Of a stretch of 64,000 bases of DNA, positions 7,735 through 30,206 are shown in pieces (within the stretch, counting starts at the first letter, position 1; every line of letters begins with the position of its first letter). The DNA comes from Candidatus Nitrospira nitrificans (GTDB lineage: Bacteria; Nitrospirota; Nitrospiria; Nitrospirales; Nitrospiraceae). The notes under the pieces are model-generated. The model searched no databases, was not told where the DNA came from, and saw only the letters and a program-made list of their open reading frames with translations. Where the stretch lies: NCBI RefSeq assembly GCF_001458775.1, contig NZ_CZPZ01000036.1, positions 1 through 64,000 on the forward strand, read 5' to 3'. Made by a program: the position numbers and the translations under genes.

Positions 7735-9455
7735 AAATTTCACGCAAGCAATATGCATCTCTGTATGGACCTACGACCGGCGATCGTGTCCGACTGGCCG
7801 ACACGGACTTGATCATCGAAGTCGAGGAAGATCGGACTGTCCCCGGTGAAGAAGCCGTCTTCGGCGGCGGGAAAACCATTCGTGACGGCATGGGGCAGTC
7901 CGCGCGCGCGACCAGCACCAGCGGGCAGCTCGACTGCGTGATCACGAACGCGCTCATCCTTGACTACACCGGTGTCATCAAGGCCGACATCGGCATCAAG
8001 GACGGCCGGATCGTCGGGATCGGCAAGGCGGGCAACTCTGATCTCATGGCGGGTGTGACGCCAGGCATGGAAATCGGCCCAGGGACGGAAGCGATTTCCG
8101 GCGAAGGCAAGATCGTCACGGCCGGTGGCATTGATACGCACATTCACTTCATTTGCCCGCAGCAATGTTGGGAGGCGTTGTCGGCCGGGTTGACCACGAT
8201 GATCGGTGGTGGGACTGGTCCTTCAAGCGGAACCAGTGCGACCACCTGTACGCCTGGTCCATGGAACATCCATCGGATGTTGGAAGCGTCGGAAGGTATC
8301 CCGATCAATCTCGGTTTCATGGGGAAGGGAAATGCGTCAAGACCTGAAGGGTTAAATGAGCAAATCGAAGCGGGGGCTCTTGGCTTGAAGCTGCATGAAG
8401 ATTGGGGCACCACACCGAAGGCCATCGATACTTGCTTGAGCGTGGCTGATCGGTATGATGTGCAGGTGGCCATCCACACCGATACGCTCAATGAAGCCGG
8501 TTATATCGAGGATACGATCAAGGCGATCAAGGGAAGAACCATCCATAGCTTCCATACGGAAGGTGCAGGCGGTGGTCACGCACCGGACATCATCAAGATT
8601 TGTGGTGAGCCGAACGTGTTGCCGTCTTCAACCAACCCCACGATGCCTTTTACGGTCAATACGATGGATGAGCATCTGGACATGTTGATCGTGTGTCACA
8701 ATTTGAATCCACGGATTCCCGAAGACGTTGCGTTTGCAGAGTCCCGTATCCGACGTGAAACCATTGCGGCAGAAGATATCTTGCATGATTTGGGCGCAAT
8801 CAGCATCATGTCTTCAGACTCACAGGCCATGGGTCGAATCGGAGAGGTCATCACCAGGACCTGGCAAACGGCTCATAAAATGAAGGCCCAGCGGGGACAC
8901 CTCACACCGGTCGGTGGGAGGGACTCCGGCCAGAACGACAACTTTCGGGCCAGGCGTTACATTGCCAAGTACACGATCAATCCAGCGATCACGCATGGCA
9001 TCGCCCATGAGGTCGGGTCTATTGAGGTTGGAAAGATCGCTGACTTGGTCGTCTGGAAGCCGGAGTTTTTCGGTGTAAAGCCGGAAATGGTATTAAAAAG
9101 CGGCTTTATCGCTCAAGCGCAGATGGGCGATCCCAATGCCTCGATCCCGACACCGGAGCCAACCATCAGCCGGCCGATGTTCGGCGCATTTGGGCGTGCG
9201 TTGTCCAGCACCAGCTTTACCTTCATATCGCAGGCGGCCATGGATCATGAGATTCCCAAACGCCTTGGTCTGCAGCGGAGGGTGGCGGCAGTCAAGAACT
9301 GTCGGAATATCGGGAAGCGCGATCTCAAGCTGAATGATGCGCTTCCAAAAGTAGAAGTTCATCCGGAGACCTATATTGTGACCGCGGACGGTGTGCCGCT
9401 CACGTGTGAGCCGGCCATTGTGTTGCCGTTGGCACAACGGTATCAATTGTTCTAA
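7731..9455 (+). CDS. ureC: Urease alpha (catalytic) subunit
   Basis: Catalytic subunit of urease, 574 residues (family ~567-572). Visible active-site parts: His-x-His nickel ligands in [11 protein letters not shown], the carbamylated Lys in [12 protein letters not shown] (K220), ligand His in [12 protein letters not shown] and [13 protein letters not shown], and the mobile-flap Cys322-His323 in [10 protein letters not shown]. All key residues are present, so the enzyme should be active. The GTG start overlaps the ureB stop, implying coupled translation. Accessory genes ureF, ureG and ureD follow. Confidence 0.98.
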
Positions 9456-16024: not shown

Positions 16025-16090
16025 TGGTCATCAGTCGTTTGGGTCATTGGTCATTAAGAGAGGCCAATGGCGAATGACGATTGACCAGTG
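16024..16090 (+). repeat. GGTCATT-type imperfect inverted repeat
   Basis: The 16024-16090 gap contains repeats of (G)GTCATT and their complements AATGaC/AATGGC, which together can form an imperfect hairpin. Similar pieces (ctatcagccattggccattcg) occur upstream of ureG at about 10290-10315. Looks like a dispersed intergenic repeat; function unknown. Confidence 0.4.
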
Positions 16091-16102
16091 ACATGTACCG
16101 AG

Positions 16103-16819
16103 ATGATGGATTGGTTGCGGGAACCAGGGTTCTTTGGAACGCATGCGACGACGGGAGCGGATCTCAGTCAGTTGATGGCGACGCTTTTCACCGGGCTCTT
16201 CATCGTGGGATGGTTCCAAGCTCGTCGGCGAAAGGCCGATGCGCATCATTGGTTGATGTTGGGCGGCATGATCGCCATGCTCAGCTTCTTTATCGCCTAT
16301 TATCTGTTCCGTCAGCTGGGGGTCCTGGCGTTTGAGGGCAAGGAAGGGTTCGGCGGCTCGCAGTCGCTCTATGATTATGTCTTCATCCCCGTCCTGACGC
16401 TCCATATCATTCTCGTCATCATCGGGCTGATTATGGCGGTGTATATGATCGTGTTGGGCTTTCGCTCTCAGCAGTTCCTCGACGGAGTCCGATCCTTACG
16501 GGAATCGCGGCTGCTGACGACCTGGAAAAAGATCGGCCTCATCTTTGGTGGAATTGCCGTGGTCGTGCTCGGGCTGTTTTTCTCGCGTGTCGCCACCGCC
16601 GGGTTTTCGATGCGGAAGCTGGAAGTGTATGTGATCTTTCTCGCCATCGTGGCCTGTGTGTTTGCGATCGAGATGACGATTCAGCGGATCTGGCCAGACG
16701 GCGCGCGGCGGCATCGCGCGCTCGGCCGATTTACGATGGTCATTTACTGTGTCCTCTTCGTGACCGGCAGCTTCACCTACACGATGCTCTATATCCTGTA
16801 TCCGGGAAAGATTGGTTAG
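16103..16819 (+). CDS. DUF420-type integral membrane protein
   Basis: Membrane protein of ~238 residues with six clear spans (around residues 25-42, 52-72, 95-120, 150-170, 182-200 and 212-232). The arrangement, with His near the ends of helices (THATTGADLSQL, DAHHWLML, VLTLHIILVIIG), matches DUF420, a family commonly found beside heme-copper or other terminal oxidases and suspected in oxidase assembly. Either ATG at 16103 or 16106 may start it; a GTG at 16088 is also in frame. First gene of a run that leads to the bd-like oxidase at 18570. Confidence 0.8.
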   Translation: MMDWLREPGFFGTHATTGADLSQLMATLFTGLFIVGWFQARRRKADAHHWLMLGGMIAMLSFFIAYYLFRQLGVLAFEGKEGFGGSQSLYDYVFIPVLTLHIILVIIGLIMAVYMIVLGFRSQQFLDGVRSLRESRLLTTWKKIGLIFGGIAVVVLGLFFSRVATAGFSMRKLEVYVIFLAIVACVFAIEMTIQRIWPDGARRHRALGRFTMVIYCVLFVTGSFTYTMLYILYPGKIG

Positions 16820-16861
16820 GACGATGCGAAGGCATTCCGAAACGTTTCACGGTGCGTTGTC

Positions 16862-17407
16862 ATGCTGACCTGCGGTTGCGGTCGCTGGATGCATGCGGAA
16901 GGAATTGAAGAACGTGCCGTCGAAAGCGGTGTTCCGCAGTGGTTCATTCGTTCAGAATGCAGAGGCTGTGGTCTGAAAGTCGGTGTCGATGTGCCGGAGG
17001 AACAGGACCAGGGCCTCGTCGATCGATTGCTCTGGACCGATGAGGCGCTGCACCGATTGGATCGCATGCTGCCGTTTGTGGCAGGGCTTGTGCGGGAGGA
17101 AGTGGAGCAGACTATTCGTCGCCAAGGCCGGCGCGTGGTGACGTACGAGACGCTGCTCCGTCCCCGCACCGGGGAGCGCATCGAATGGGACCCGGAGGCG
17201 GAACAGCGGTTGGGTCGAGTGCCCGCGCCGGTTCGTGCCATGGCCAAGATCGAGCTCGAGCGCACCGCGGCAGATCGTGGATTGGCTCGTATCACCGTGT
17301 CGCTGATGGAAGAGATTAAAGCCAAGTATTTTGGGATGGGTAGCGGGAAGCCCGCTTCCCCCGCTCAGCCCGCGTCGACAAGTCTGCGAGGCGAGCGTGA
17401 AGCGTGA
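16862..17407 (+). CDS. PCP_red-domain protein with N-terminal Cys motifs
   Basis: 181 residues, soluble. The N-terminus carries two Cys pairs (LTCGCGRWMHAEG; RSECRGCGLKVG) that could bind a metal. Residues ~115-165 (EWDPEAEQRLGRVPAPVRAMAKIELERTAADRG... region) match the small PCP_red domain named after light-independent protochlorophyllide reductase subunit B but widespread in non-photosynthetic bacteria. The last ~15 residues (PASTSLRGEREA) are encoded by a dispersed 32-bp repeat. Its place between the DUF420 and bd-like oxidase genes suggests a link to redox enzyme assembly; function unknown. Confidence 0.7.
   Translation: MLTCGCGRWMHAEGIEERAVESGVPQWFIRSECRGCGLKVGVDVPEEQDQGLVDRLLWTDEALHRLDRMLPFVAGLVREEVEQTIRRQGRRVVTYETLLRPRTGERIEWDPEAEQRLGRVPAPVRAMAKIELERTAADRGLARITVSLMEEIKAKYFGMGSGKPASPAQPASTSLRGEREA
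17367..17398 (+). repeat. 32-bp dispersed repeat, copy 1
   Basis: Identical over 32 bases to the reverse complement of 38128-38159 (core GTCGACAAGTCTGCGAGG). This copy lies inside the 3' end of the PCP_red-domain gene; the other is intergenic. Confidence 0.85.
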
Positions 17408-17455
17408 AGCGTCAAAAAGACGCCGGGCTTTTCATGCGAAGCGGCGTGACCGGGC

Positions 17456-18565
17456 ATGGCGCTTCAGGCACGGCGTTTTACGAGCGACGGGGTACTGATG
17501 CTGCATCGAATGGCCTTGCGCGTGATTCCCAGCTTGAGCCTGGCGGTGACGGAAGATGCCGTCCGCCGAAAGAAGCGGATCGTCATGTTTGTGCCGGGAT
17601 TGATCGCGTTCGGGGTGTATCGTCTCGCGAAGCATGTCGTTCCGATTGCAGATCCCCTGGTGCTGTTGATGGTCAGTAGTCTGGTGGCGATGGTCACTTC
17701 GCTGGTGGCCTATCGAGTTGGTCGGTCGGCCTCGTGGCCTGTCATCGTCCGACAAGATGGAGCTCGCCTTCTCAGCTGGCTGGCCGGGTGGATCGGTGCC
17801 GTCTATGGCATTCAGCTTTCGTTGTTGGTCCTGACCCTGTTATGGATCATGAATTATGATTATCTCCAACATCCCGAGGGGCCGGCCATGATGGCGATCA
17901 TCATCTCCTGCACGGCCGTCGCGCGCGATGCGTTTGAAATCGGTCATGTGCGCAAACTCTCGGTGCTGGGGCGGCCGTTTCTCACGTTTCCCGATGGCGC
18001 ACAGTTTCGTGTACTGGTGCAGCGCAGAGGGTGGCAATTGGGACCCTGGGCCGCGGTGGGCCTTGGTATGGGTGCGCTGGCGTCCTTATCGGGGGTGGCC
18101 ATCACGGATGCTCAAGGATCCGCGTTGGCGCAATTGTTGAGCGTGACGGTTCTGGGCGGCGGGCTGGCCCTATGTGCCTATTTCGGCGGACTCTATCCTA
18201 CTGTGCCATGGGTTCGGACGCTCCGTCAGACCGCTCCAGGAGAGTTGCTGAAGTATTGGTGGTGGCCGGGGATGGCATTTGCCTCGACCTATTATCTGGT
18301 GGCGATGGGGCTGCTCTTGTTTGTGGCGAGACAGCCGACGATGACGCCGGGCGCGGCGGCCCTAATGGGAGCGCTGGTCACGGCGATGATGGCGGTGTAC
18401 GGATATTATCTCGGTGATCGCCGCCATGTCGAAGATGAGCAGGCGCCGCAACTGTCCAGTGGCATGTTACGGTGCCCGTTTGTGATGGGAATTCTCGGGA
18501 AGCCGGTCGGTCCTGACGGGGCAGTCGGGGAGTTGACGCTCGGCAAGACCGAAACGAAGGGGTAG
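17456..18565 (+). CDS. Multi-span membrane protein, function unknown
   Basis: 369 residues from ATG 17456; an internal ATG at 17498 (MLHRMALRVIPSLSLAV) is an alternative start. About eight hydrophobic spans are seen, for example around residues 40-60, 67-85, 108-130, 200-225, 236-256, 285-305 and 315-335, separated by short charged loops. The C-terminal tail is soluble. No family is recognised. It is directly upstream of (4 bases) and on the same strand as the bd-like oxidase gene at 18570, so it may be a subunit or assembly factor of that complex (inference). Confidence 0.75.
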   Translation: MALQARRFTSDGVLMLHRMALRVIPSLSLAVTEDAVRRKKRIVMFVPGLIAFGVYRLAKHVVPIADPLVLLMVSSLVAMVTSLVAYRVGRSASWPVIVRQDGARLLSWLAGWIGAVYGIQLSLLVLTLLWIMNYDYLQHPEGPAMMAIIISCTAVARDAFEIGHVRKLSVLGRPFLTFPDGAQFRVLVQRRGWQLGPWAAVGLGMGALASLSGVAITDAQGSALAQLLSVTVLGGGLALCAYFGGLYPTVPWVRTLRQTAPGELLKYWWWPGMAFASTYYLVAMGLLLFVARQPTMTPGAAALMGALVTAMMAVYGYYLGDRRHVEDEQAPQLSSGMLRCPFVMGILGKPVGPDGAVGELTLGKTETKG

Positions 18566-18569
18566 AAGC

Positions 18570-20447
18570 ATGGGCCGAGGATGCATGATGATGACACGTT
18601 CTGCGATCAGCGTTATAGCCTGCGTGGTGATGGTAGCCGTCGCCATCGGATGCGCGTGGAATGGACCCGATCTGTCGTTTGCGGAATCATCGACGGATGT
18701 GTACTTCGGCACGGAAGGGACTCCGCAGGGTCCGGCGGCTCCCGCTCCTCACGAAACGGTCTATCCGCGAGTCGGTTCGTTAGACAGTCGGTTGCTGGTG
18801 TGGTTCGTGACACAGCAACATACCTATTTCGGAGGATTCGTTCTCGCCCTGCCCTTGTTTTGCGCGTTGCTCGAGTTCCTTGGGTTGATCACCAAGAAGC
18901 CGGCCCTCGCCCTTCGCTATGATGGTCTGGCGCGGGATCTCGCCAAGGTGGCGGTTTTGGCTCTGTCGGTGACGTCGCTCATCGGCAGCCTGATGCTGAC
19001 GATGTTCATCACGCTCTATCCCAGTTTCATGAAGTATATGGGCGGCACGTTCAAAGGGTTCATGCCCGCCTACGCGGCTGTGTTTGTGGGAGAATCGCTG
19101 CTCCTGATCGTCTATTACTATGGGTGGAATCGGATGACGGATCGGGGCATGAAGTGGATCCACGCCGCGATCGGGATTCTGACCAACATCGTGGGAACCG
19201 TCTTATTGATGATGGCGAATGCCTGGTCTGCCTTCATGATGTCACCCGCCGGGGTGGATGCACAGGGGCGGTTCTTGGGAAATGCCTGGCATCTGCTTCA
19301 TTCCGCGCTCTGGAACCCTCTGAATGTCCATCGCTTTCTGGCGGACATCATGTCCGGTGGAGCGGTGGTATTGGCCTATGCCTGTTACCGGTTCTTTACC
19401 AGCAAGACCGACGAAGAGCGAGCCTATTTCGATTGGGTCGGTTATGTTTTCCTGTTTGTCACAGTCTGTGCGCTGATCCCCATGCCGATTGCCGGCTATT
19501 GGCTGATGAAATCGGTGTTCGTATTTCGCCAGACCATGGGTGTCACCATGATGGGTGGATTGCTGACATGGTTGTTTGTGGTTCAGGCGCTCTTGATCGG
19601 CGTCCTGTTTCTAGGGATCAACTATTATCTGTGGCAGAGCATGGCACGGATCAAAGGGGGCGAGCGCTATCAGCCCTATTACCAGCTCTTGCTGGGCGTG
19701 TTGATGCTGGCGCTCTTCGTCTGGCTGACCCCTCACACGTTGCTCACATCTGCCAGTGAAGTCAAGGCGATGGGCGGCGCTCAGCATCCCGTGATCGGCA
19801 ACTACGGAGTCATGTCGGCCAAGAACGGAGCGGTCAACATCCTGATCCTCGTCACCGCTCTCAGTTTTCTGTACTACCGTCGAGCGAATCGAACCATGAC
19901 GATCTCGTGGGTCAAGACCGGGAATATGATTCTCGCCATTCTCTATATCATCGGGGCGCTGAATATCGCCTGGTTATCGATCTATGGGTTTTATTTGCCG
20001 GCGAAGGTTCGTGTCGGCCTTTCTGCGCCCCAGGCCTTCACGACGTTCACGGTGATCGTCATCAGTGTGGTGGTGAACCGGCTCATGCTTCGAGGGGCGG
20101 TGGTGCATGGCCCGATTCAGTGGGGGAAAATTCCGTTGCGCGGCATGGTGGGATTGTTTGGGTTGGCGGCGTCCTTCAGCTGGGTGATGGGGTTGATGGG
20201 GTACATTCGTTCATCGGGACGGTTGTCATGGCACATCAGTGAATTGATGGCCGACGTCTCGCCCTGGGCCTTCACCCCAGACCTTCAATATGCGACGAAA
20301 ATGGTGACGCTGAACATGGTGGTATTTTGGGCAGCCGTCCTCGTATTGTTCTGGATGTGTGAGCGGGGGCAGCAGCCCGTGATGGGAGAGGAATTTCCGG
20401 AGGAACAGGTGCCGTTGCTTTCGCCGGTTCCGTCGCAAGAAACCTAA
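18570..20447 (+). CDS. Cytochrome bd-like oxidase subunit I, paralogue 1
   Basis: 625 residues. N-terminal signal-type segment (residues ~10-30) and a periplasmic linker precede a CydA-like core with about 13-14 spans. The conserved pattern SRLLVWFVTQQHTYFGG (H84) corresponds to the heme-b ligand helix of CydA, WHLLHSALWNPLNVHR to the second heme region, and GGAQHPVIGNYGVMSAKNG replaces the CydA GRQPW region. 46-50% or so of positions look the same as in paralogue 2 at 24001 by eye. Divergent bd-like oxidases are known from Nitrospira and are considered candidate terminal oxidases; activity of this copy is unproven. No CydB and no cytochrome c lie next to it. Confidence 0.85.
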   Translation: MGRGCMMMTRSAISVIACVVMVAVAIGCAWNGPDLSFAESSTDVYFGTEGTPQGPAAPAPHETVYPRVGSLDSRLLVWFVTQQHTYFGGFVLALPLFCALLEFLGLITKKPALALRYDGLARDLAKVAVLALSVTSLIGSLMLTMFITLYPSFMKYMGGTFKGFMPAYAAVFVGESLLLIVYYYGWNRMTDRGMKWIHAAIGILTNIVGTVLLMMANAWSAFMMSPAGVDAQGRFLGNAWHLLHSALWNPLNVHRFLADIMSGGAVVLAYACYRFFTSKTDEERAYFDWVGYVFLFVTVCALIPMPIAGYWLMKSVFVFRQTMGVTMMGGLLTWLFVVQALLIGVLFLGINYYLWQSMARIKGGERYQPYYQLLLGVLMLALFVWLTPHTLLTSASEVKAMGGAQHPVIGNYGVMSAKNGAVNILILVTALSFLYYRRANRTMTISWVKTGNMILAILYIIGALNIAWLSIYGFYLPAKVRVGLSAPQAFTTFTVIVISVVVNRLMLRGAVVHGPIQWGKIPLRGMVGLFGLAASFSWVMGLMGYIRSSGRLSWHISELMADVSPWAFTPDLQYATKMVTLNMVVFWAAVLVLFWMCERGQQPVMGEEFPEEQVPLLSPVPSQET

Positions 20448-22462: not shown

Positions 22463-23362
22463 ATGCTGGAAACCAAGTTCAAAGTTGTTTTCTTGCTCGT
22501 CTTGCTGGCTTGTGCTGCGATGCCGATTATCGCGATTTTACGAGGAACCACCGTAACGCCGTACGAAAAGCCTGTGCCTGGAACCGGCGCCGAAGTTGAG
22601 GCGGTGGCAGATCGCGATCCTGGAGAGGAACCTATTCCGGATGAGATGGTGACGATTCCGGCGGGGCCATTCGTTCGTGGCACAGAGAGCGGGGGATTCG
22701 ACGAGCGGCCGCAGCGAACCATCCACTTGGATACGTTTTCTATCGATCGGTACGAAGTGACGAATCATCACTATCAGCAGTTTGTCCTGGCAACAGGCCA
22801 TCGGAAGCCCGGGCTGCCCGCGCGTTACGCCAAGAGCGGTGGAAAGCTGAAAGGAACAAATCAGCCGGTCGTATATGTATCGTGGGATGATGCGAAGGAG
22901 TACTGCCGCTGGAAGGGGAAGCGACTTCCGACGGAAGCGGAATGGGAAAAGGCGATGCGGGGCAACGACGGAAGACTCTGGCCGTGGGGGAACAAAGAGC
23001 AGACCAATGGCGCCAACTGGGCCCGAGTACAGGACGGGTATGAGGTATCTGCGCCGGTGGGAAGTTTCCAGGAGGATATGAGTCCTTACGGAGTGATGGA
23101 TGGAGCGGGTAACGCCATTGAGTGGGTGGACGATTGGTATGATGAAACATACTACAATCGCTCGCCGGAACAGAACCCACCAAGTCCTGAGTATGGCACC
23201 TATCGGGTGCTCCGCGGTGGAGGTTATACGACGACCGGAGGTGATGTTCGAATTACCAGTCGAAGCAAGATGATGCCGGATTTTCGAGATGAGATGATCG
23301 GGTTTCGCTGCGCAGTGTCGAAGGCAGAAATGAAACAAGAGAGGGAGAAAAAAGCAGGATGA
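22463..23362 (+). CDS. Membrane-anchored SUMF1/formylglycine-generating-enzyme-like protein 2
   Basis: 299 residues, anchored by an N-terminal span (VVFLLVLLACAAMPIIAIL). Same fold as the preceding gene: MVTIPAGPFVRGTESGGFDERPQ, YEVTNHHYQQFV, VYVSWDDAKEYCRWKGKRLPTEAEWEKAMRG, YGVMDGAGNAIEWVDDWYDE, YRVLRGGGY and GFRCAVSK. The two genes are 6 bases apart and likely arose by tandem duplication. Stops 2 bases before the end of a convergent small gene. Confidence 0.85.
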   Translation: MLETKFKVVFLLVLLACAAMPIIAILRGTTVTPYEKPVPGTGAEVEAVADRDPGEEPIPDEMVTIPAGPFVRGTESGGFDERPQRTIHLDTFSIDRYEVTNHHYQQFVLATGHRKPGLPARYAKSGGKLKGTNQPVVYVSWDDAKEYCRWKGKRLPTEAEWEKAMRGNDGRLWPWGNKEQTNGANWARVQDGYEVSAPVGSFQEDMSPYGVMDGAGNAIEWVDDWYDETYYNRSPEQNPPSPEYGTYRVLRGGGYTTTGGDVRITSRSKMMPDFRDEMIGFRCAVSKAEMKQEREKKAG

Positions 23363-23364
23363 AT

Positions 23365-23469
23365 TTACAGGAAATCAAAGTAGTAGAGGATCAAAAACAC
23401 GGCCAAAATGATGTTGACAACCATTCCGACCAAAACTATAATGTCAAACACTTTTGAGTTTTTCGTCAC
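23365..23469 (-). CDS. 34-residue single-span membrane protein
   Basis: A GTG start at 23469 (minus strand) is preceded by a clear AGGAG site (acAGGAGaaacc). The product MTKNSKVFDIIVLVGMVV continues as one hydrophobic span to NIILAVFLILYYFDFL. A longer frame exists upstream but lacks a ribosome site. It converges on the SUMF1-like gene and diverges from two other small membrane genes before the bd-like oxidase. Size and placement resemble small oxidase subunits such as CydX/CcoQ, but no sequence match to those is claimed. Confidence 0.6.
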   Translation of the reverse strand: MTKNSKVFDIIVLVGMVVNIILAVFLILYYFDFL

Positions 23470-23593
23470 GGTTTCTCCTGTTTTTTTGTACGCGAGCGAC
23501 GAAATTTTGATAACACAGGGTCTTGTGCCTGTCAAGTAATGCGCCAATTCTGATTTTCCATCAAAAACTATCTTAATCGGGAGTACGGTAACA

Positions 23594-23716
23594 ATGGCAA
23601 CGGCGACCCCTGACAGCGAAATTAAAGTAAAAATCGGGAAGATGATTTTCTACATCACCTGTGCTGTTGGACTATGGTTTTTCTACTGGTTTGCCGGTAT
23701 CCAGTGCCCCTGTTGA
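23594..23716 (+). CDS. 40-residue single-span membrane protein
   Basis: Short gene starting MATATPDSEIKVKIGKM and followed by one hydrophobic span (IFYITCAVGLWFFYWFAG) and the end IQCPC. The polar N-terminus, one membrane helix and two terminal Cys suggest a small inner-membrane subunit or lipid/metal-attached peptide. Lies upstream of another small membrane gene (80 bases) and of the bd-like oxidase gene at 24001. No ribosome site is very strong, so confidence is moderate. Confidence 0.55.
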   Translation: MATATPDSEIKVKIGKMIFYITCAVGLWFFYWFAGIQCPC

Positions 23717-23796
23717 GTGAAGGCCTTCGTGGTTCAGGGGCTTGTCAGCACAGTTTCATCAACGGCTGGACTTGGTCGGCAGAGGAGAAAGAAAAA

Positions 23797-23928
23797 ATGA
23801 GTGCGCTGAATAATCCTGTTGTCGCGGTAATTGTCTCTCTTATTATCACGGTTGGCTACTTTGTCTTTGTCGATCACTACCTTATGGATATGCAGGGGCT
23901 GGATTTCTGGTACCTCTTCCGGAATTAG
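23797..23928 (+). CDS. 43-residue single-span membrane protein
   Basis: The ATG at 23797 follows agAGGAGAAagaaaaa. The product MSALNNPVVAVIVSLIITVG continues with YFVFVDHYLMDMQGLDFWYLFRN: one membrane span then a short aromatic tail. 72 bases before the bd-like oxidase gene on the same strand, so cotranscription is likely. A small accessory subunit of that oxidase is the natural guess from size, topology and position. Confidence 0.7.
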   Translation: MSALNNPVVAVIVSLIITVGYFVFVDHYLMDMQGLDFWYLFRN

Positions 23929-24000: not shown

Positions 24001-25917
24001 ATGGGCCTTTTAGCCGGCAAGCGCGTCTTATCCATTATGGCGCTCTGCATGATGGTGGGCCTCCTTCTGCTTCCGATCGTCGTAGCTCTGCCTTCACTGG
24101 CAATCGGTGAAGATGCTCCTGCCGGCGATGCGGCCAAGAAGGATGGCGACAAAGTTGAAAAGGGTCGAGATGTCTATTACAAGACCGAAGGCATTGTCGT
24201 GGGTGCTCCCGCCCCTAAAACGGTGGATGGTCCCAGGGACTATCCGCGATACAACTTCGAAAGCCGTGTATTACTCTGGTTTGCCAACCAGCAGCATCTT
24301 TATTACGGCAGCTTCGTGTTGGCTGTGCCGATCTTCTGCATGATTATTGAGTTCATGGGTGTCGTGACGAAGGATAAGGCGCTCGCCAAGCGTTACGATC
24401 AGTTGGCCTATGACTTTATTAAGATCAGCCTGACGGCCTACTCTCTCACCGCTATTCTCGGCGGTATTCTGATCTTTACCTTTCTAACCTTGTACCCGGC
24501 ATTTTTCTCCTATCTGTCAGGTATTTTCCGTCCTGTCATGCACATCTACGCATTGATGTTTGTGGCTGAGAGCGGGACTCTCTACATCTACTATTACGGC
24601 TGGGACAAGATGAGAGAGGGGTTCTTAAAATGGATTCATTTGAGCATGTCGGTGATCCTAAACATCATTGGGACGCTGCTCATGTTCCTCGCAAATTCCT
24701 GGATCGGTTTCATGATGTCACCGGCCGGCGTTGATGAGCAGGGTAGATACCTGGGAAACATCTGGCACGTGATCCACACTGCTTTATGGAACCCTCTCAA
24801 CCTGCATCGAATCCTTGGCAATATGGCCTTCGGAGGTGGCGTTGTTGCCGCCTACGCCGCCTACAAGTTTTTGGCGGCAAAAACAGAAGAAGATCGCGCT
24901 CATTACGATTGGATGGGCTACATCGCTATGGCGCTCGGTGTGGCATTCTTGATCCCGCTGCCATTTGCAGGATATTGGCTCATGCGGGAAGTGTATGCCT
25001 ATCGTCAGCAGATGGGGATCACGCTGATGGGTGGACTCCTTGCTTGGCTGTTTATCATCCAGGCCACGATGATCGGCATTCTTTTCTTAAGCACCAACTA
25101 TTATCTCTGGCAGGCGATGGGTCGCATGCGCGGCGCTGAAAAGTATCAACGATACATCAAGTATCTTGTATTTCTGCTCGCTTGCGGCTTCCTGGTTTTT
25201 ATCACCCCCCACACGATGGTCATGTCACCGGCTGAACTGAAGGCCATGGGAGGTCAGCAGCACCCGGTCTTGGGTAACTACGGAGTCATGTCAGCGAAAA
25301 ACGGTGGGATCAACGTCATTATTACGACCACCGTGTTGAGTTTCGTTTGGTACATGAGGGGGAATAAAGTCTCAACCGTATCGTGGGCGAAGTTCGGTAA
25401 TATATTTATGGGTGTATTTTTCGCCTGCGCCTACTTTAATATTATTTTCCTTGCCGTATATGGGTATTACATTCCGGCAAACGTCCGCGTCGGTTTGTCT
25501 GTTCCTCAGGTCGCGACAACCTTATCATGCCTATTCTTCATGTTTGCCCTCAATAGCGTCATGATGAAGGGGGCCAAACAATTAGGACCGATTGAGTGGG
25601 GAAAGATTTCAGCCCGCTCTCAGTATGCGCTCATTATGTTGGCAACTGCATTTACCTGGATGATGGGTTTGATGGGCTATATTCGCTCCTCGGTCCGTCT
25701 ATTCTGGCATGTGAACGAAATCATGCGCGATAATTCACCCTGGGCCTACACGCATACGGTTGGATTTGCGGCCAACATGATTTCATTCAACGTATTGTTT
25801 TTCTGGATCACGATTCTGTTTGTTTTCTGGCTTGGCAGCTTGACTGCGAAGAAGGTACCAGTGGAATCCAAAGCGGGAGTCCCTGGTAGCGTCCCGCAAC
25901 CGGCTGTCAGTCATTAA
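24001..25917 (+). CDS. Cytochrome bd-like oxidase subunit I, paralogue 2
   Basis: 638 residues, with a perfect AAGGAGG site before the ATG. Signal/first span at residues ~8-35, a charged periplasmic stretch, then the CydA-like core: SRVLLWFANQQHLYYGSF (H99, heme b ligand), VAESGTLYIYYYGWDKM, WHVIHTALWNPLNLHR, GGQQHPVLGNYGVMSAKNG (takes the place of GRQPW), and MGLMGYIRSSVRLFWHVNE. Three c-type cytochrome genes follow on the same strand, so this copy is the best candidate for a cytochrome c-linked terminal oxidase of the kind proposed for Nitrospira. CydB is absent. Confidence 0.9.
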   Translation: MGLLAGKRVLSIMALCMMVGLLLLPIVVALPSLAIGEDAPAGDAAKKDGDKVEKGRDVYYKTEGIVVGAPAPKTVDGPRDYPRYNFESRVLLWFANQQHLYYGSFVLAVPIFCMIIEFMGVVTKDKALAKRYDQLAYDFIKISLTAYSLTAILGGILIFTFLTLYPAFFSYLSGIFRPVMHIYALMFVAESGTLYIYYYGWDKMREGFLKWIHLSMSVILNIIGTLLMFLANSWIGFMMSPAGVDEQGRYLGNIWHVIHTALWNPLNLHRILGNMAFGGGVVAAYAAYKFLAAKTEEDRAHYDWMGYIAMALGVAFLIPLPFAGYWLMREVYAYRQQMGITLMGGLLAWLFIIQATMIGILFLSTNYYLWQAMGRMRGAEKYQRYIKYLVFLLACGFLVFITPHTMVMSPAELKAMGGQQHPVLGNYGVMSAKNGGINVIITTTVLSFVWYMRGNKVSTVSWAKFGNIFMGVFFACAYFNIIFLAVYGYYIPANVRVGLSVPQVATTLSCLFFMFALNSVMMKGAKQLGPIEWGKISARSQYALIMLATAFTWMMGLMGYIRSSVRLFWHVNEIMRDNSPWAYTHTVGFAANMISFNVLFFWITILFVFWLGSLTAKKVPVESKAGVPGSVPQPAVSH

Positions 25918-25992: not shown

Positions 25993-27297
25993 TTGAGTAA
26001 TTTAATTGCAGAGGCACTCTCCATGGGCTGGATGGCGTTGGCTATCCTGGTCGGGCTATTAGTTTATTTTCAGGTATCTATCAGCGACCCTGCAGCAAAG
26101 AAGCGCGCGGTTTTCAAAACATTCATCGGTATTGTTGCGACGTTTTTGCTGTTTGTGGCCATCGCGAACTATGCAAATAATTTCTACGGGGAAAATCGGC
26201 TTTTGCCGGTGTCTCTGGTGATGATCACTGTAACCACGTTTATGATGGCACTGTACTTCACCAATCTTAGCGCGCTGCTGAAGATAGGTGGGATGATGTT
26301 CTTTGTCGCCGCGTTTCTGTCTGGCTATGGAAACTGGCTTCCGCAAGTCGAAGGTGGCTTCCCGCCTGTAGAGGAAAAGAAGACCTGGGATTCGATGACC
26401 CCGCAGCAACTGGCTGATGAAGGTGAGAAGATTATCTTTGGAGGCGTCGGAAAAAATAAGGAGCAAGGTGCGATCGGTAAGGGGCAATGTCCCCTCTGTC
26501 ATGCGTTTCATGCCGGCATGCTGGGCGAACGAGCACCAAACCTCGCAGGACTTCCAGGACGAGGGAATGAGCGATTGGGGGACCCTAAGTATTCTAAGGG
26601 TAATCCATCCAAGCGTGAATATGAAGTCAAGGAAGCCTTTCCAGGTTCAGGGACAGCAGAAAATGCGCAAGAGTACATTGCGGAATCGCACGCTTGTCCT
26701 AGTTGCTATGTCGTGAGTGGGTATGGGGTGAAGGGAACGAATGACAAGCAGAGCCCGATGCCGGCGATTCATAAGCCACCCATCTCGCTTAGCCTTCCAG
26801 AGCTTGCAGCTGTGGATACTTGGATGTATCTACGCGAGGGAATAGACGCTCCCTCGTTCGAAGAGATCGTGAAGTCGTACGAGAAGTTTATCCCGGAAGC
26901 TGATCGTCCCAAGCAGGCTGACGAAAAGCCTGCGGGGGCCACATCTCTAATGGCTGATGGATCGGAGCCGGTGGATCAAATTTTCGCTAAGGGTCAATGT
27001 ATTTCCTGTCATACGATCCCCGGGATCCCGGGAGCTGTGGGAACTATTGGACCGAAGTTGGAAGAGGGAACAACGGCAGCGCAGCGTATCAAGGATCCGA
27101 CCTACAAGGGAACAGCCAAATCACCCACTGAATACATTATGGAGTCTATCGTGGACCCCAGTGCTTTTGTGGTGAAGCCGTTCCCTGATAACACCATGCC
27201 CAAAGTCTTTGGACAAAAGCTAAGTGCTGGTGCGTTAAAAAAGATTGTCGATTATTTGTCGCAGGTGAAAACGGGAGCGCCGCCGCCTAAAATTTAA
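25993..27297 (+). CDS. Membrane-bound diheme cytochrome c
   Basis: 434 residues from a TTG start (25993) that has an ideal aGGAGGtc site. N-terminal ~130 residues contain four membrane spans; two class I cytochrome c domains follow. Heme 1 is CPLCH (C166, C169, H170) and heme 2 is CISCH (C336, C339, H340). The likely Met ligands are in SPMPAIHK and NTMPKVFG. A further CPSCY at C235 lies in the loop where the second domain reads DPSAF and is not a heme site. Follows the bd-like oxidase by 75 bases; probably its electron donor or subunit. Confidence 0.88.
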   Translation: MSNLIAEALSMGWMALAILVGLLVYFQVSISDPAAKKRAVFKTFIGIVATFLLFVAIANYANNFYGENRLLPVSLVMITVTTFMMALYFTNLSALLKIGGMMFFVAAFLSGYGNWLPQVEGGFPPVEEKKTWDSMTPQQLADEGEKIIFGGVGKNKEQGAIGKGQCPLCHAFHAGMLGERAPNLAGLPGRGNERLGDPKYSKGNPSKREYEVKEAFPGSGTAENAQEYIAESHACPSCYVVSGYGVKGTNDKQSPMPAIHKPPISLSLPELAAVDTWMYLREGIDAPSFEEIVKSYEKFIPEADRPKQADEKPAGATSLMADGSEPVDQIFAKGQCISCHTIPGIPGAVGTIGPKLEEGTTAAQRIKDPTYKGTAKSPTEYIMESIVDPSAFVVKPFPDNTMPKVFGQKLSAGALKKIVDYLSQVKTGAPPPKI

Positions 27298-27340
27298 TCG
27301 ACCCGTTGCCTGTCATACGGAGAGTAAAGGGAGTTTGCCG

Positions 27341-28378
27341 ATGAAAGCATTGATGTCACTCGGTGCCTTGATTGGAGTAGCGGGGCTTCTCCTTCTGGGA
27401 GGGATGATTTTCGACATTGTTCCGTCAACAACCGTACGCTTGGTCGAAGGCTATATGCCTATGCAAATGCTTTTTGAGATTGCCTGCTTCGTCGCCGGAT
27501 TTGCAGGACTGAGCTACATGATGAGCGCTATAGGTGCGCCATTTCCTCGTTTTTGGCAGGGAATCGGGTTTTGGGTATTCGTCCTGCTTTATCTGAAATA
27601 CCGTGTCTATCCACCGATTCCCTTCAGCGTCCGCGCAATGTATGGCACTGTGTCGCTCGTCGCAGTGTTCATGTGGGTTTCTGCCAATGAAGAAGATTGG
27701 CAGAAATTCAAACAGCCCATCATGAACGTGCTTGATGCGAAGACGGGTGGGAATAGGCTCCTACGGTATCTTTATCTCGTGCTCCTGCCGATCCTCATCG
27801 GTGGATTTTCCTTTAACGCCATGATGCCGAAATCCGAAGAGCCGATCGAGTTACGAACGGTTCATCCGGCACCACCGGCAAGTACAAAAGTCCATGGTAA
27901 AACCTATACCTTGCAGACTTCGCAGAATCCTTATCGCGTGAATCCTGAAGGGAAATACGATCAGGAGTTCACGAACGCCAATATCGTTGAGCAGGGTATG
28001 GGGCGGTTGATGAAGCCCAATGCCAACCCCTGGGACGATAAAAATCAGGGCTACCTCAAGTACGTGCGAGAGGGTGGTGAGATATTCTTTCAGAACTGTC
28101 ATTTCTGCCATGGCGATAATTTGAATGGTCGAGGGCTCCACGCCTTTGCCTTTAATCCAATCCCGGCCAATTTTACCGATCCAGGCACAATTGCCCAGCT
28201 ACAAGAAACCTTTATCTTCTGGCGGGTTGCGAAGGGCGGAATTGGGCTACCTAACGAAGGGTTCCCCTGGGCATCAGTCATGCCCCCCTGGGAGCAACAC
28301 CTGACGGTGGATGAAATTTGGAAAGTCGTTTTGTTTGAATATTGGCACACCGGCTACTATCCACGAACGTGGGATTAG
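27341..28378 (+). CDS. Membrane-bound monoheme cytochrome c
   Basis: 345 residues from ATG 27341 (site AAAGGGAG 8 bases before; TTG at 27335 less likely). N-terminal half has about five spans (residues ~3-25, 42-60, 75-90, 100-118, 148-165). The C-terminal domain holds one heme motif, NCHFCHGDNLNGRG near residue 256, and an MPPWEQHLT Met-ligand-type pattern. Membrane part resembles a cytochrome b/ACT-like anchor only loosely. Third gene of the oxidase-cytochrome c run. Confidence 0.85.
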   Translation: MKALMSLGALIGVAGLLLLGGMIFDIVPSTTVRLVEGYMPMQMLFEIACFVAGFAGLSYMMSAIGAPFPRFWQGIGFWVFVLLYLKYRVYPPIPFSVRAMYGTVSLVAVFMWVSANEEDWQKFKQPIMNVLDAKTGGNRLLRYLYLVLLPILIGGFSFNAMMPKSEEPIELRTVHPAPPASTKVHGKTYTLQTSQNPYRVNPEGKYDQEFTNANIVEQGMGRLMKPNANPWDDKNQGYLKYVREGGEIFFQNCHFCHGDNLNGRGLHAFAFNPIPANFTDPGTIAQLQETFIFWRVAKGGIGLPNEGFPWASVMPPWEQHLTVDEIWKVVLFEYWHTGYYPRTWD

Positions 28379-28412: not shown

Positions 28413-30206
28413 ATGAAGATTATGAGGCCAAACATGATGGACAGTATGACTCAGAAGGCCGGGATCATCGCGGCTGCTGCCTTCGGAGTGGTTTTAGTGC
28501 TTAGCGCGGGGTATTCGTCTGTTTCAGCTCAAGGGCTTCCCGAAGGCTTTAAAAAGGGCGATCTCGCGCCTGAGCCGTCGGCAGAAATGATTGAAGCAGG
28601 GAAACGAGTCTATTTTACCAAGTGCGTGTGGTGTCATGGAGTGGATGGCGCCGGTGATGGGCCGGGAGCCGATCGTCTATGGCCACGCCCTCGGAACTTC
28701 AATCAAGGGACGTTTAAAATTCGCCATACTGCAAGCGGCGAGCTCCCGCTCTTCGATGCCAAGAAGCCCATCCCTGGACAAAACGATCTCTTCGAAACGG
28801 TAACGCATGGGCTCCCCGGTTCTGCGATGCCTCCGTGGGAAGGTATCCTGAGTGAAGAACAGCGCCAACAAGTCCTCTCTTTTGTTACTACTCAACTGGT
28901 CAAGGATCGAAAATTTACCGACAAGCAGTCCGAGACGCAGACGATTTTACAGCTGGCGGATCTTAAACCTAAACCCGCAACTGACGAGAGTAAGAAGCGG
29001 GGCGGTGAATTGATCGTAGAGAAAAAGTGTGTCGAATGTCATGGGATGGAAGGGCGTGGCGATGGAAACGCCTTTAATCTAAAGGATGACTGGGGTTTCT
29101 CAATCCAGCCGGCCAATTGGCACAAGTGCTGGAACTTCCGCGGTAGCCGGCAGGACCCCTATAACGTCAGCAACATCTTTAGAACTTTTTCGACGGGTGT
29201 GAACGGCACTCCAATGCCTTCGTTCGCAGATAACACGAGCGTCGATGAACGGTGGGATATCGCCAACTTTGTCAGTTCGCTGTGTGAACGAGATACGCTG
29301 GGGAATCCACTGCCCATTGATCCATTAACGGATAAGCCGAAAATCAACTTTGTCGTCCCCTCTGACCTCGTTGAGGGGGAAATTCCGGCTGACATCGAAC
29401 ATGAAGCCTGGCAAAAGGCTTCAAAACGGTATGTGGCAATGGGTGGGCAGATCACCCATAAGCCAAGAAACTTTGTGAATCGAATCGACGATATCTGGGT
29501 TCGATCGCTCTACAATGATAAGTACATTGTCTATCTTTTGGAATGGGATGACCGAACGAAAAGTATAGCTGAAGGCAAGCTTCCGTGGGCTCCCACTCAG
29601 GTGAATATCGATGTTAAAGAGCAGGACCCCAAGACCGGCGAGGAGGGGTCGATCGCCGCGAAGCAAAATAATTACACGGTCTACAACGATGCAATTGCCA
29701 TTGAGACAGCGGTGAAGTGGAAAGAGTTACCGGCTCCGATCAAGCCGCGCTATTTATTCGGGACGAATGAGCAATTCCCCGTTGATATCGTCAAGTGGGA
29801 AGCAGACGGTTCCCTCCGTGCGTTCAAAGGCACGGGATGGGATAAGGATTTCGAAGAACGGGATAACTACGAAGAGGCCATGAAGCTCTTAAAGAGCGAA
29901 TGGAAGAATGGTCGTTGGTATGTCATGATTCAGCGACCCGTAGGAAATAAGAAAGACCAGGATTACGACGAGGATACGTTTTTTGAAGTGGGTCAATATA
30001 TTCCCACTGTCTTCTTTGCATGGGATGGGCACAATGGAGATGCAGGCCGAAAGATGGCTGTCTCCGCGTTTTTCTACACATTCATGAACCCGCCTGTTCC
30101 TCAGGAAACATACATCTATCCGGTTGTTATCGCTGTCGGTGTCGTACTGCTGGAGGGTTGGATTCTGACCCGTCGCGCAAACAGGAAAAAGGGAAAGACA
30201 CTGTAG
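28413..30206 (+). CDS. Diheme cytochrome c fused to ethylbenzene-dehydrogenase-type heme domain
   Basis: 597 residues: signal segment (residues ~10-38), two cytochrome c domains with CVWCHGVDGAGDGPG and CVECHGMEGRGDGN, then a domain from about residue 310 (GEIPADIEHEAWQKASKRYVAMGG... FVNRIDDIWVRSLYNDKYIVYLLEWDD) of the heme-b-binding gamma-subunit family (EB_dh), and a C-terminal span (YIYPVVIAVGVVLLEGWILTRR) as membrane anchor. The order heme c-heme c-heme b in one chain would form a periplasmic electron wire. Last gene before a strong terminator. Confidence 0.85.
   Translation: MKIMRPNMMDSMTQKAGIIAAAAFGVVLVLSAGYSSVSAQGLPEGFKKGDLAPEPSAEMIEAGKRVYFTKCVWCHGVDGAGDGPGADRLWPRPRNFNQGTFKIRHTASGELPLFDAKKPIPGQNDLFETVTHGLPGSAMPPWEGILSEEQRQQVLSFVTTQLVKDRKFTDKQSETQTILQLADLKPKPATDESKKRGGELIVEKKCVECHGMEGRGDGNAFNLKDDWGFSIQPANWHKCWNFRGSRQDPYNVSNIFRTFSTGVNGTPMPSFADNTSVDERWDIANFVSSLCERDTLGNPLPIDPLTDKPKINFVVPSDLVEGEIPADIEHEAWQKASKRYVAMGGQITHKPRNFVNRIDDIWVRSLYNDKYIVYLLEWDDRTKSIAEGKLPWAPTQVNIDVKEQDPKTGEEGSIAAKQNNYTVYNDAIAIETAVKWKELPAPIKPRYLFGTNEQFPVDIVKWEADGSLRAFKGTGWDKDFEERDNYEEAMKLLKSEWKNGRWYVMIQRPVGNKKDQDYDEDTFFEVGQYIPTVFFAWDGHNGDAGRKMAVSAFFYTFMNPPVPQETYIYPVVIAVGVVLLEGWILTRRANRKKGKTL

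Follow-up and report, generated by a model that had tools for sequence, protein, structure and literature searches.

CydX, CydY, CydZ and CydS are tiny one-span proteins encoded beside a CydA-type gene, with the N-terminus inside and the C-terminus outside, and the motif of CydX is given in the relevant passage of PMC4325964 as YxxWxxGx15E/D. CcoQ/FixQ and CcoM are short one-span accessory proteins of the cbb3 oxidase, likewise a cytochrome complex. In Nitrospira, a bd-like_3/alt_NxrC_2 cluster has been described in Nitrospira moscoviensis, where it is among the 40 strongest transcripts, and the proposed terminal oxidase is a different protein, bd-like_2 (PMC6606698). The cluster apparently equals TO_1 of the manganese oxidisers, including Ca. 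Manganitrophus (PMC9040806). The bd-like proteins keep the haem b ligands and have no quinol-binding residues, three helices replace the Q-loop, and their role has been called enigmatic (PMC3578206). The passages on the cluster in these three open-licence papers make no mention of small proteins there, and to the cluster as published in them the present analysis adds three frames and a promoter embedded in one of these.

The window, i.e. the whole stretch of 64,000 nucleotides of Candidatus Nitrospira nitrificans that was analysed, contains this same cluster. The sequence-only reading had proposed three tiny frames, each with one membrane span, in front of an oxidase gene at 24001. P1, P2 and P3 are all present, within the 636 bases before 24001, and represent conserved genes for predicted one-span membrane proteins.

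18570..20447, plus strand: bd-like_4, a paralogue encoded in this locus, beside which no small companion frames were found.
22463..23362, plus strand: SUMF1/FGE-like membrane protein, convergent with P1; its position is usually conserved.
23365..23469, minus strand: P1, 34 aa (VTKNSKVFDIIVLVGMVVNIILAVFLILYYFDFL), GTG start, single span, predicted N-in/C-out.
23414..23442, plus strand: sigma-70 consensus promoter TTGACA-17-TATAAT, contained in the P1 coding sequence but on the other strand, facing P2-P3-bd-like_3.
23594..23716, plus strand: P2, 40 aa, single span, C-terminal GIQCPC.
23797..23928, plus strand: P3, 43 aa, single span, conserved tail LM-x-x-QGLD-[FY]-W-Y.
24001..25917, plus strand: cytochrome bd-like_3 (TO_1), Pfam PF01654, CydA-type fold with additional helices (AlphaFold).
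25993..27297, plus strand: membrane-anchored c-type cytochrome, two CxxCH motifs in relatives (diheme).
27335..28378, plus strand: membrane-anchored c-type cytochrome, one CxxCH motif (monoheme).
28413..30206, plus strand: alternative NxrC with two c-type haem motifs and an ethylbenzene-dehydrogenase-type haem b domain.

In gene order, bd-like_4 is followed by genes for a DUF3047 protein, a glycine-zipper protein and two SUMF1/FGE-like proteins and by P1 on the opposite strand; P2, P3, bd-like_3, the diheme cytochrome c, the monoheme cytochrome c and the alternative NxrC come after P1. P1 and the SUMF1-like gene are convergent, and their 3′ ends overlap in antisense by about 47 bases in many genomes (L032 and L048 among them). 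On the 5′ side of bd-like_4 (window 16088-18565) lie genes for a DUF420 protein, a PCP_red-domain protein and a membrane protein with no Pfam match, a trio that is syntenic in several families and whose products are possible maturation factors. Elsewhere, an Rfam match to the Helicobacter 5′-ureB antisense RNA (109 bits; window 7876-8171, minus strand) lies opposite the urease alpha gene and probably arises from conservation of the coding sequence for urease and not from an RNA.

The gene following P3 is bd-like_3 of the Nitrospira literature and not bd-like_2: a bd-like protein, diheme and monoheme cytochromes c and an alternative NxrC occur together, as in the bd-like_3/alt_NxrC_2 locus. PF01654 matches only the N-terminal half of the protein. 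Its AlphaFold model (mean pLDDT 74) superposes on CydA chains with Z scores of 28.6-32.5 over 345-358 aligned residues, along the protein length past residue 81, and the next fold match is subunit F of alternative complex III (Z 20-22); this fold search is blind to the place where small helices would bind. No CydB match was found in the operon with Pfam and NCBIfam profiles.

Since 123 ORFs of at least 30 aa overlap the surrounding 12 kb, the presence of short frames is by itself no evidence of genes. Among 30 relatives, however, pN/pS was 0.113, 0.070 and 0.123 in the own frames of P1, P2 and P3, against 1.2-2.2 in the two shifted frames of the same strand. The complementary-strand frames gave values of 0.16-10, of which the low ones (0.16-0.27) belong to the frame that shares its third positions with the real frame. 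Ribosome-binding sites, start positions and stop positions of all three are preserved in 30 loci. Taken with the pN/pS values, this indicates that P1, P2 and P3 are protein-coding, and by these sequence measures they are real, conserved genes. P1 has 34 aa from its GTG and would have 60 aa from a TTG in the same frame. Pfam and NCBIfam returned no match for any of the three, and a PDB sequence search found no relatives of P2 or P3. The frames recur in other Nitrospira, with P3 in 70, P2 in 74 and P1 in 72 of 77 genomes, counted at E<=1, where nearly all matches are far stronger and a handful are weak or cut by a contig end.

The three proteins extend well beyond this genus. The DNA in front of bd-like_3 was searched with their profiles at 170 loci. 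Of the distinct upstream regions with 900 bp or more, 122 in number, P3 turned up in all 122, P2 in 121 and P1 in 120; these regions all come from one class and are not independent of each other. The carriers comprise Nitrospiraceae, other Nitrospirales, Candidatus Manganitrophaceae and Troglogloeales, and family f5 (L199) also has all three; the small genes are not limited to Nitrospira. P2 and P3 stand in tandem, a median of 287 and 76 bases before bd-like_3 and on its strand in every case, while P1 is divergently oriented in nearly all loci. In L096 and L097, P1 is still there, 2.6-3.3 kb from bd-like_3. P1 was not found in the Troglogloeales loci L117 and L118, nor P2 in L117. Nitrospina and anammox bacteria are reported to have the cluster as well. 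Among 396 genomes searched, a strong bd-like_3 match was confined, within the phylum, to the class of Nitrospira and Manganitrophaceae, and the best 80 of 500 matches in a contig scan for relatives were all from Nitrospirota; a plasmid search with bd-like_3 returned nothing. An assignment of family f2 to Leptospirillum was dropped, the cytochrome 579 model having no match above its cut-off.

Several genomes contain a second, solo bd-like_3, 74-81% identical, with neither the cytochromes nor alt-NxrC. None of P1, P2 and P3 was found near it in the seven readable loci (L191-L196, L198). The small genes therefore track the complete operon and not the bd-like protein, which goes against the proposed link to the oxidase gene itself. 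Solo copies could borrow P1-P3 of the main operon in trans, and contact with the bd-like subunit is thus still compatible with this distribution. Small one-span frames were also searched for beside bd-like_1, bd-like_2 and bd-like_4, and none were found.

The suggestion that the frames are of CydX or CcoQ type finds no support as homology and is rejected on sequence, motif and partner. At E<=1, the CydX (YbgT_YccB family) Pfam model matches none of P1-P3, and the CydX motif is absent from all three on inspection. Their operon encodes a bd-like protein, two cytochromes c and an alternative NxrC instead of the cydA and cydB partners of CydX. The FixQ (CcoQ) model likewise gave no match to P1-P3, whose partner is CydA-type and not a haem-copper oxidase of the cbb3 kind; CcoM is set apart in the same way, by partner and by the lack of Pfam matches in P1-P3. 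In comparison with CydX, CydY, CydZ and CydS, the small genes here precede rather than follow that of the large subunit, have no sequence match to them, and encode three distinct proteins, one of them divergently. CydX is needed for its complex to be active and stable, and P1-P3 may nevertheless work similarly to CydX and CcoQ.

In P2, positive residues precede the span in all 112 distinct sequences, predicting an N-in/C-out orientation. The last residue is Cys (in CPC) in 98 of the 112 and His in 10; of the remaining four, all but L119 have Cys or His at one of the last three positions. Cys and His are usual haem or copper ligands, and a role of the P2 terminus as a cofactor ligand is thus a testable idea rather than a result. 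The C-terminal Cys/His, on the predicted periplasmic side, is a possible ligand of this kind. P3 relatives preserve LM-x-x-Q-[GN]-L, and in several Nitrospiraceae genera P3 has an extra N-terminal span (L100-L102, L106); its flanking positive charges are mostly tied.

Elsewhere in some Nitrospiraceae genomes, P2-like proteins that share the membrane segment and have 65-98 aa are encoded beside unrelated genes, namely those for FKBP-like proteins and sensor kinases (L044:6954-7250, L045:6551-6799, L046:5659-5943, L103:8138-8335, L105:7704-7925). Four of these five end in GIQCPC, and the one in L046 is cut at a stop.

P1 has positive residues before its span in 92 of 92 distinct sequences, again predicting N-in/C-out, and its residues D, G, N and Y are invariant in 12 of 12 diverse aligned members. 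The promoter on its opposite strand matches the consensus at 12 of 12 positions, as it does in every locus whose bd-like_3 is at least 75% identical (all Nitrospirales), which makes 108 of the 119 distinct loci. In the 98 closest loci, the P1 codons ATT ATA (TATAAT) and GTT GTC (TTGACA) are invariant; where the bd-like_3 genes of the same loci encode Ile, they use ATA in 2.6% of cases. Free variation is seen in the Asn codon that has its third base immediately beyond the -35 hexamer (AAT 61, AAC 37) and in the spacer Gly and Ala codons. The spacer codons GTT TTG by the -10 box are frozen in these 98 loci though outside both hexamers, and a further regulatory site is possible there (window 23414-23469). 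The embedded promoter is absent from the 11 more distant loci; in most of these lineages an 11/12 promoter lies between P1 and P2, mostly TTGACA, 17, TATATT/TATAGT. Intragenic and antisense promoters known elsewhere are placed likewise, within a gene but on the strand opposite to its coding sequence. The one in P1 differs in its perfect consensus, kept in every examined Nitrospirales locus, and in its host, a 34-codon gene whose product is probably part of the same complex. Such a strong promoter is consistent with the top-40 transcript rank of the cluster in the expression passages of PMC6606698.

Synonymous divergence is 0.21 in P1 and 0.57 and 0.58 in P2 and P3, a difference attributable to the operon promoter within P1. 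Since constraint acts on the DNA itself in the middle of P1 in Nitrospirales, its conservation could be a by-product of the promoter, and P1 not a protein at all. We find this hardly credible: beyond the promoter, the residues are kept although their codons change synonymously, the ribosome-binding site and start codon are preserved, P1 persists when moved kilobases away, and Manganitrophaceae and others with no embedded promoter keep the protein with its invariant residues. P1 thus appears to be a protein gene that also holds a promoter in Nitrospirales. That the three are accidental neighbours with another activity, such as a small toxin, a regulator or a stress peptide, is very improbable. 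The P2-like proteins away from the complex, most ending in GIQCPC, show that the P2 segment is used in other settings, but the class-wide synteny of P1-P3 and their absence beside solo bd-like_3 copies are not what accidental neighbours would show. The main alternative, unlikely in our judgement, is that P1-P3 act in assembly or insertion, aiding the folding, haem loading or joining of the bd-like_3 and cytochrome modules and then leaving the completed complex. Likely maturation genes abound in the locus (the two SUMF1/FGE-like genes, DUF420, DUF3047 and the glycine-zipper protein), the Cys-Pro-Cys/His end of P2 could pass on metal or haem, and P1 adjoins a SUMF1-like gene in most loci, even in L097 and L199, which have P1 at a great distance from bd-like_3. 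P2 and P3, however, lie directly within the structural operon. Very small one-span proteins encoded next to respiratory genes are more often subunits, as with CydX and similar proteins, and this also counts against assembly factors.

The subunit reading is the most likely one because the small genes are conserved, encode one-span proteins and are tied to the operon; purifying selection, the presence in 120-122 of the 122 regions, those of the manganese-oxidising Manganitrophaceae included, and the retention of distant P1 genes speak for it. Counted against it are the divergent P1, the gaps in L117 and L118, the solo bd-like_3 duplicates that manage with no neighbouring copies, and the fact that conservation and linkage suit assembly factors equally. 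We consider that P1-P3 are probably small structural subunits of a bd-like_3/cytochrome c/alt-NxrC complex. The sequence-only reading of unrecognised oxidase subunits thus finds support as to subunits but not as to an oxidase, since the neighbour is neither the proposed terminal oxidase (PMC6606698) nor equipped with quinol-binding residues as its family is described (PMC3578206). With solo duplicates devoid of P1-P3, subunits of a multi-cytochrome bd-like_3 complex fit better.

In such a complex, P1, P2 and P3 would be translated as one-span membrane proteins with the N-terminus inside, and the single helix of each would pack on the large CydA-like subunit or on the cytochrome anchors and thereby stabilise the assembly. 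P2 and P3 would point their conserved tails into the periplasm, the site of the cytochrome domains. P2 and P3 would be co-transcribed with bd-like_3 from the strong promoter, and P1 would be transcribed oppositely, its gene in Nitrospirales carrying the operon promoter on the other strand. A bolder version, distinctly unlikely when taken whole, would make P1-P3 new essential micro-subunits of a complex common to nitrite and manganese oxidisers, with P2 as a ligand and P1 as a dual-function gene. The Cys-Pro-Cys/His of P2 would then ligate haem or copper at the periplasmic surface and connect the CydA-like core with the domains of the cytochromes c, and the opposite strand of P1, as promoter of its own complex, would physically couple the expression of P1 and the operon.

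Few parts of the Nitrospira respiratory chain are transcribed as strongly as the bd-like_3 complex, whose candidate roles are to reduce oxygen, to reduce quinone for reverse electron flow or to serve in NXR docking. Three more conserved components provide targets for structures and proteomes and a co-expression set for reconstitution. It is unusual to see the constraints on a protein and on a promoter overlap as clearly as in this 34-codon gene, which contains a core promoter of its own system, and genome annotation misses such overlaps. Manganitrophaceae are reported to have no nitrification genes, and the occurrence of the complex with the same small proteins in this family argues that the complex is independent of nitrite oxidation.
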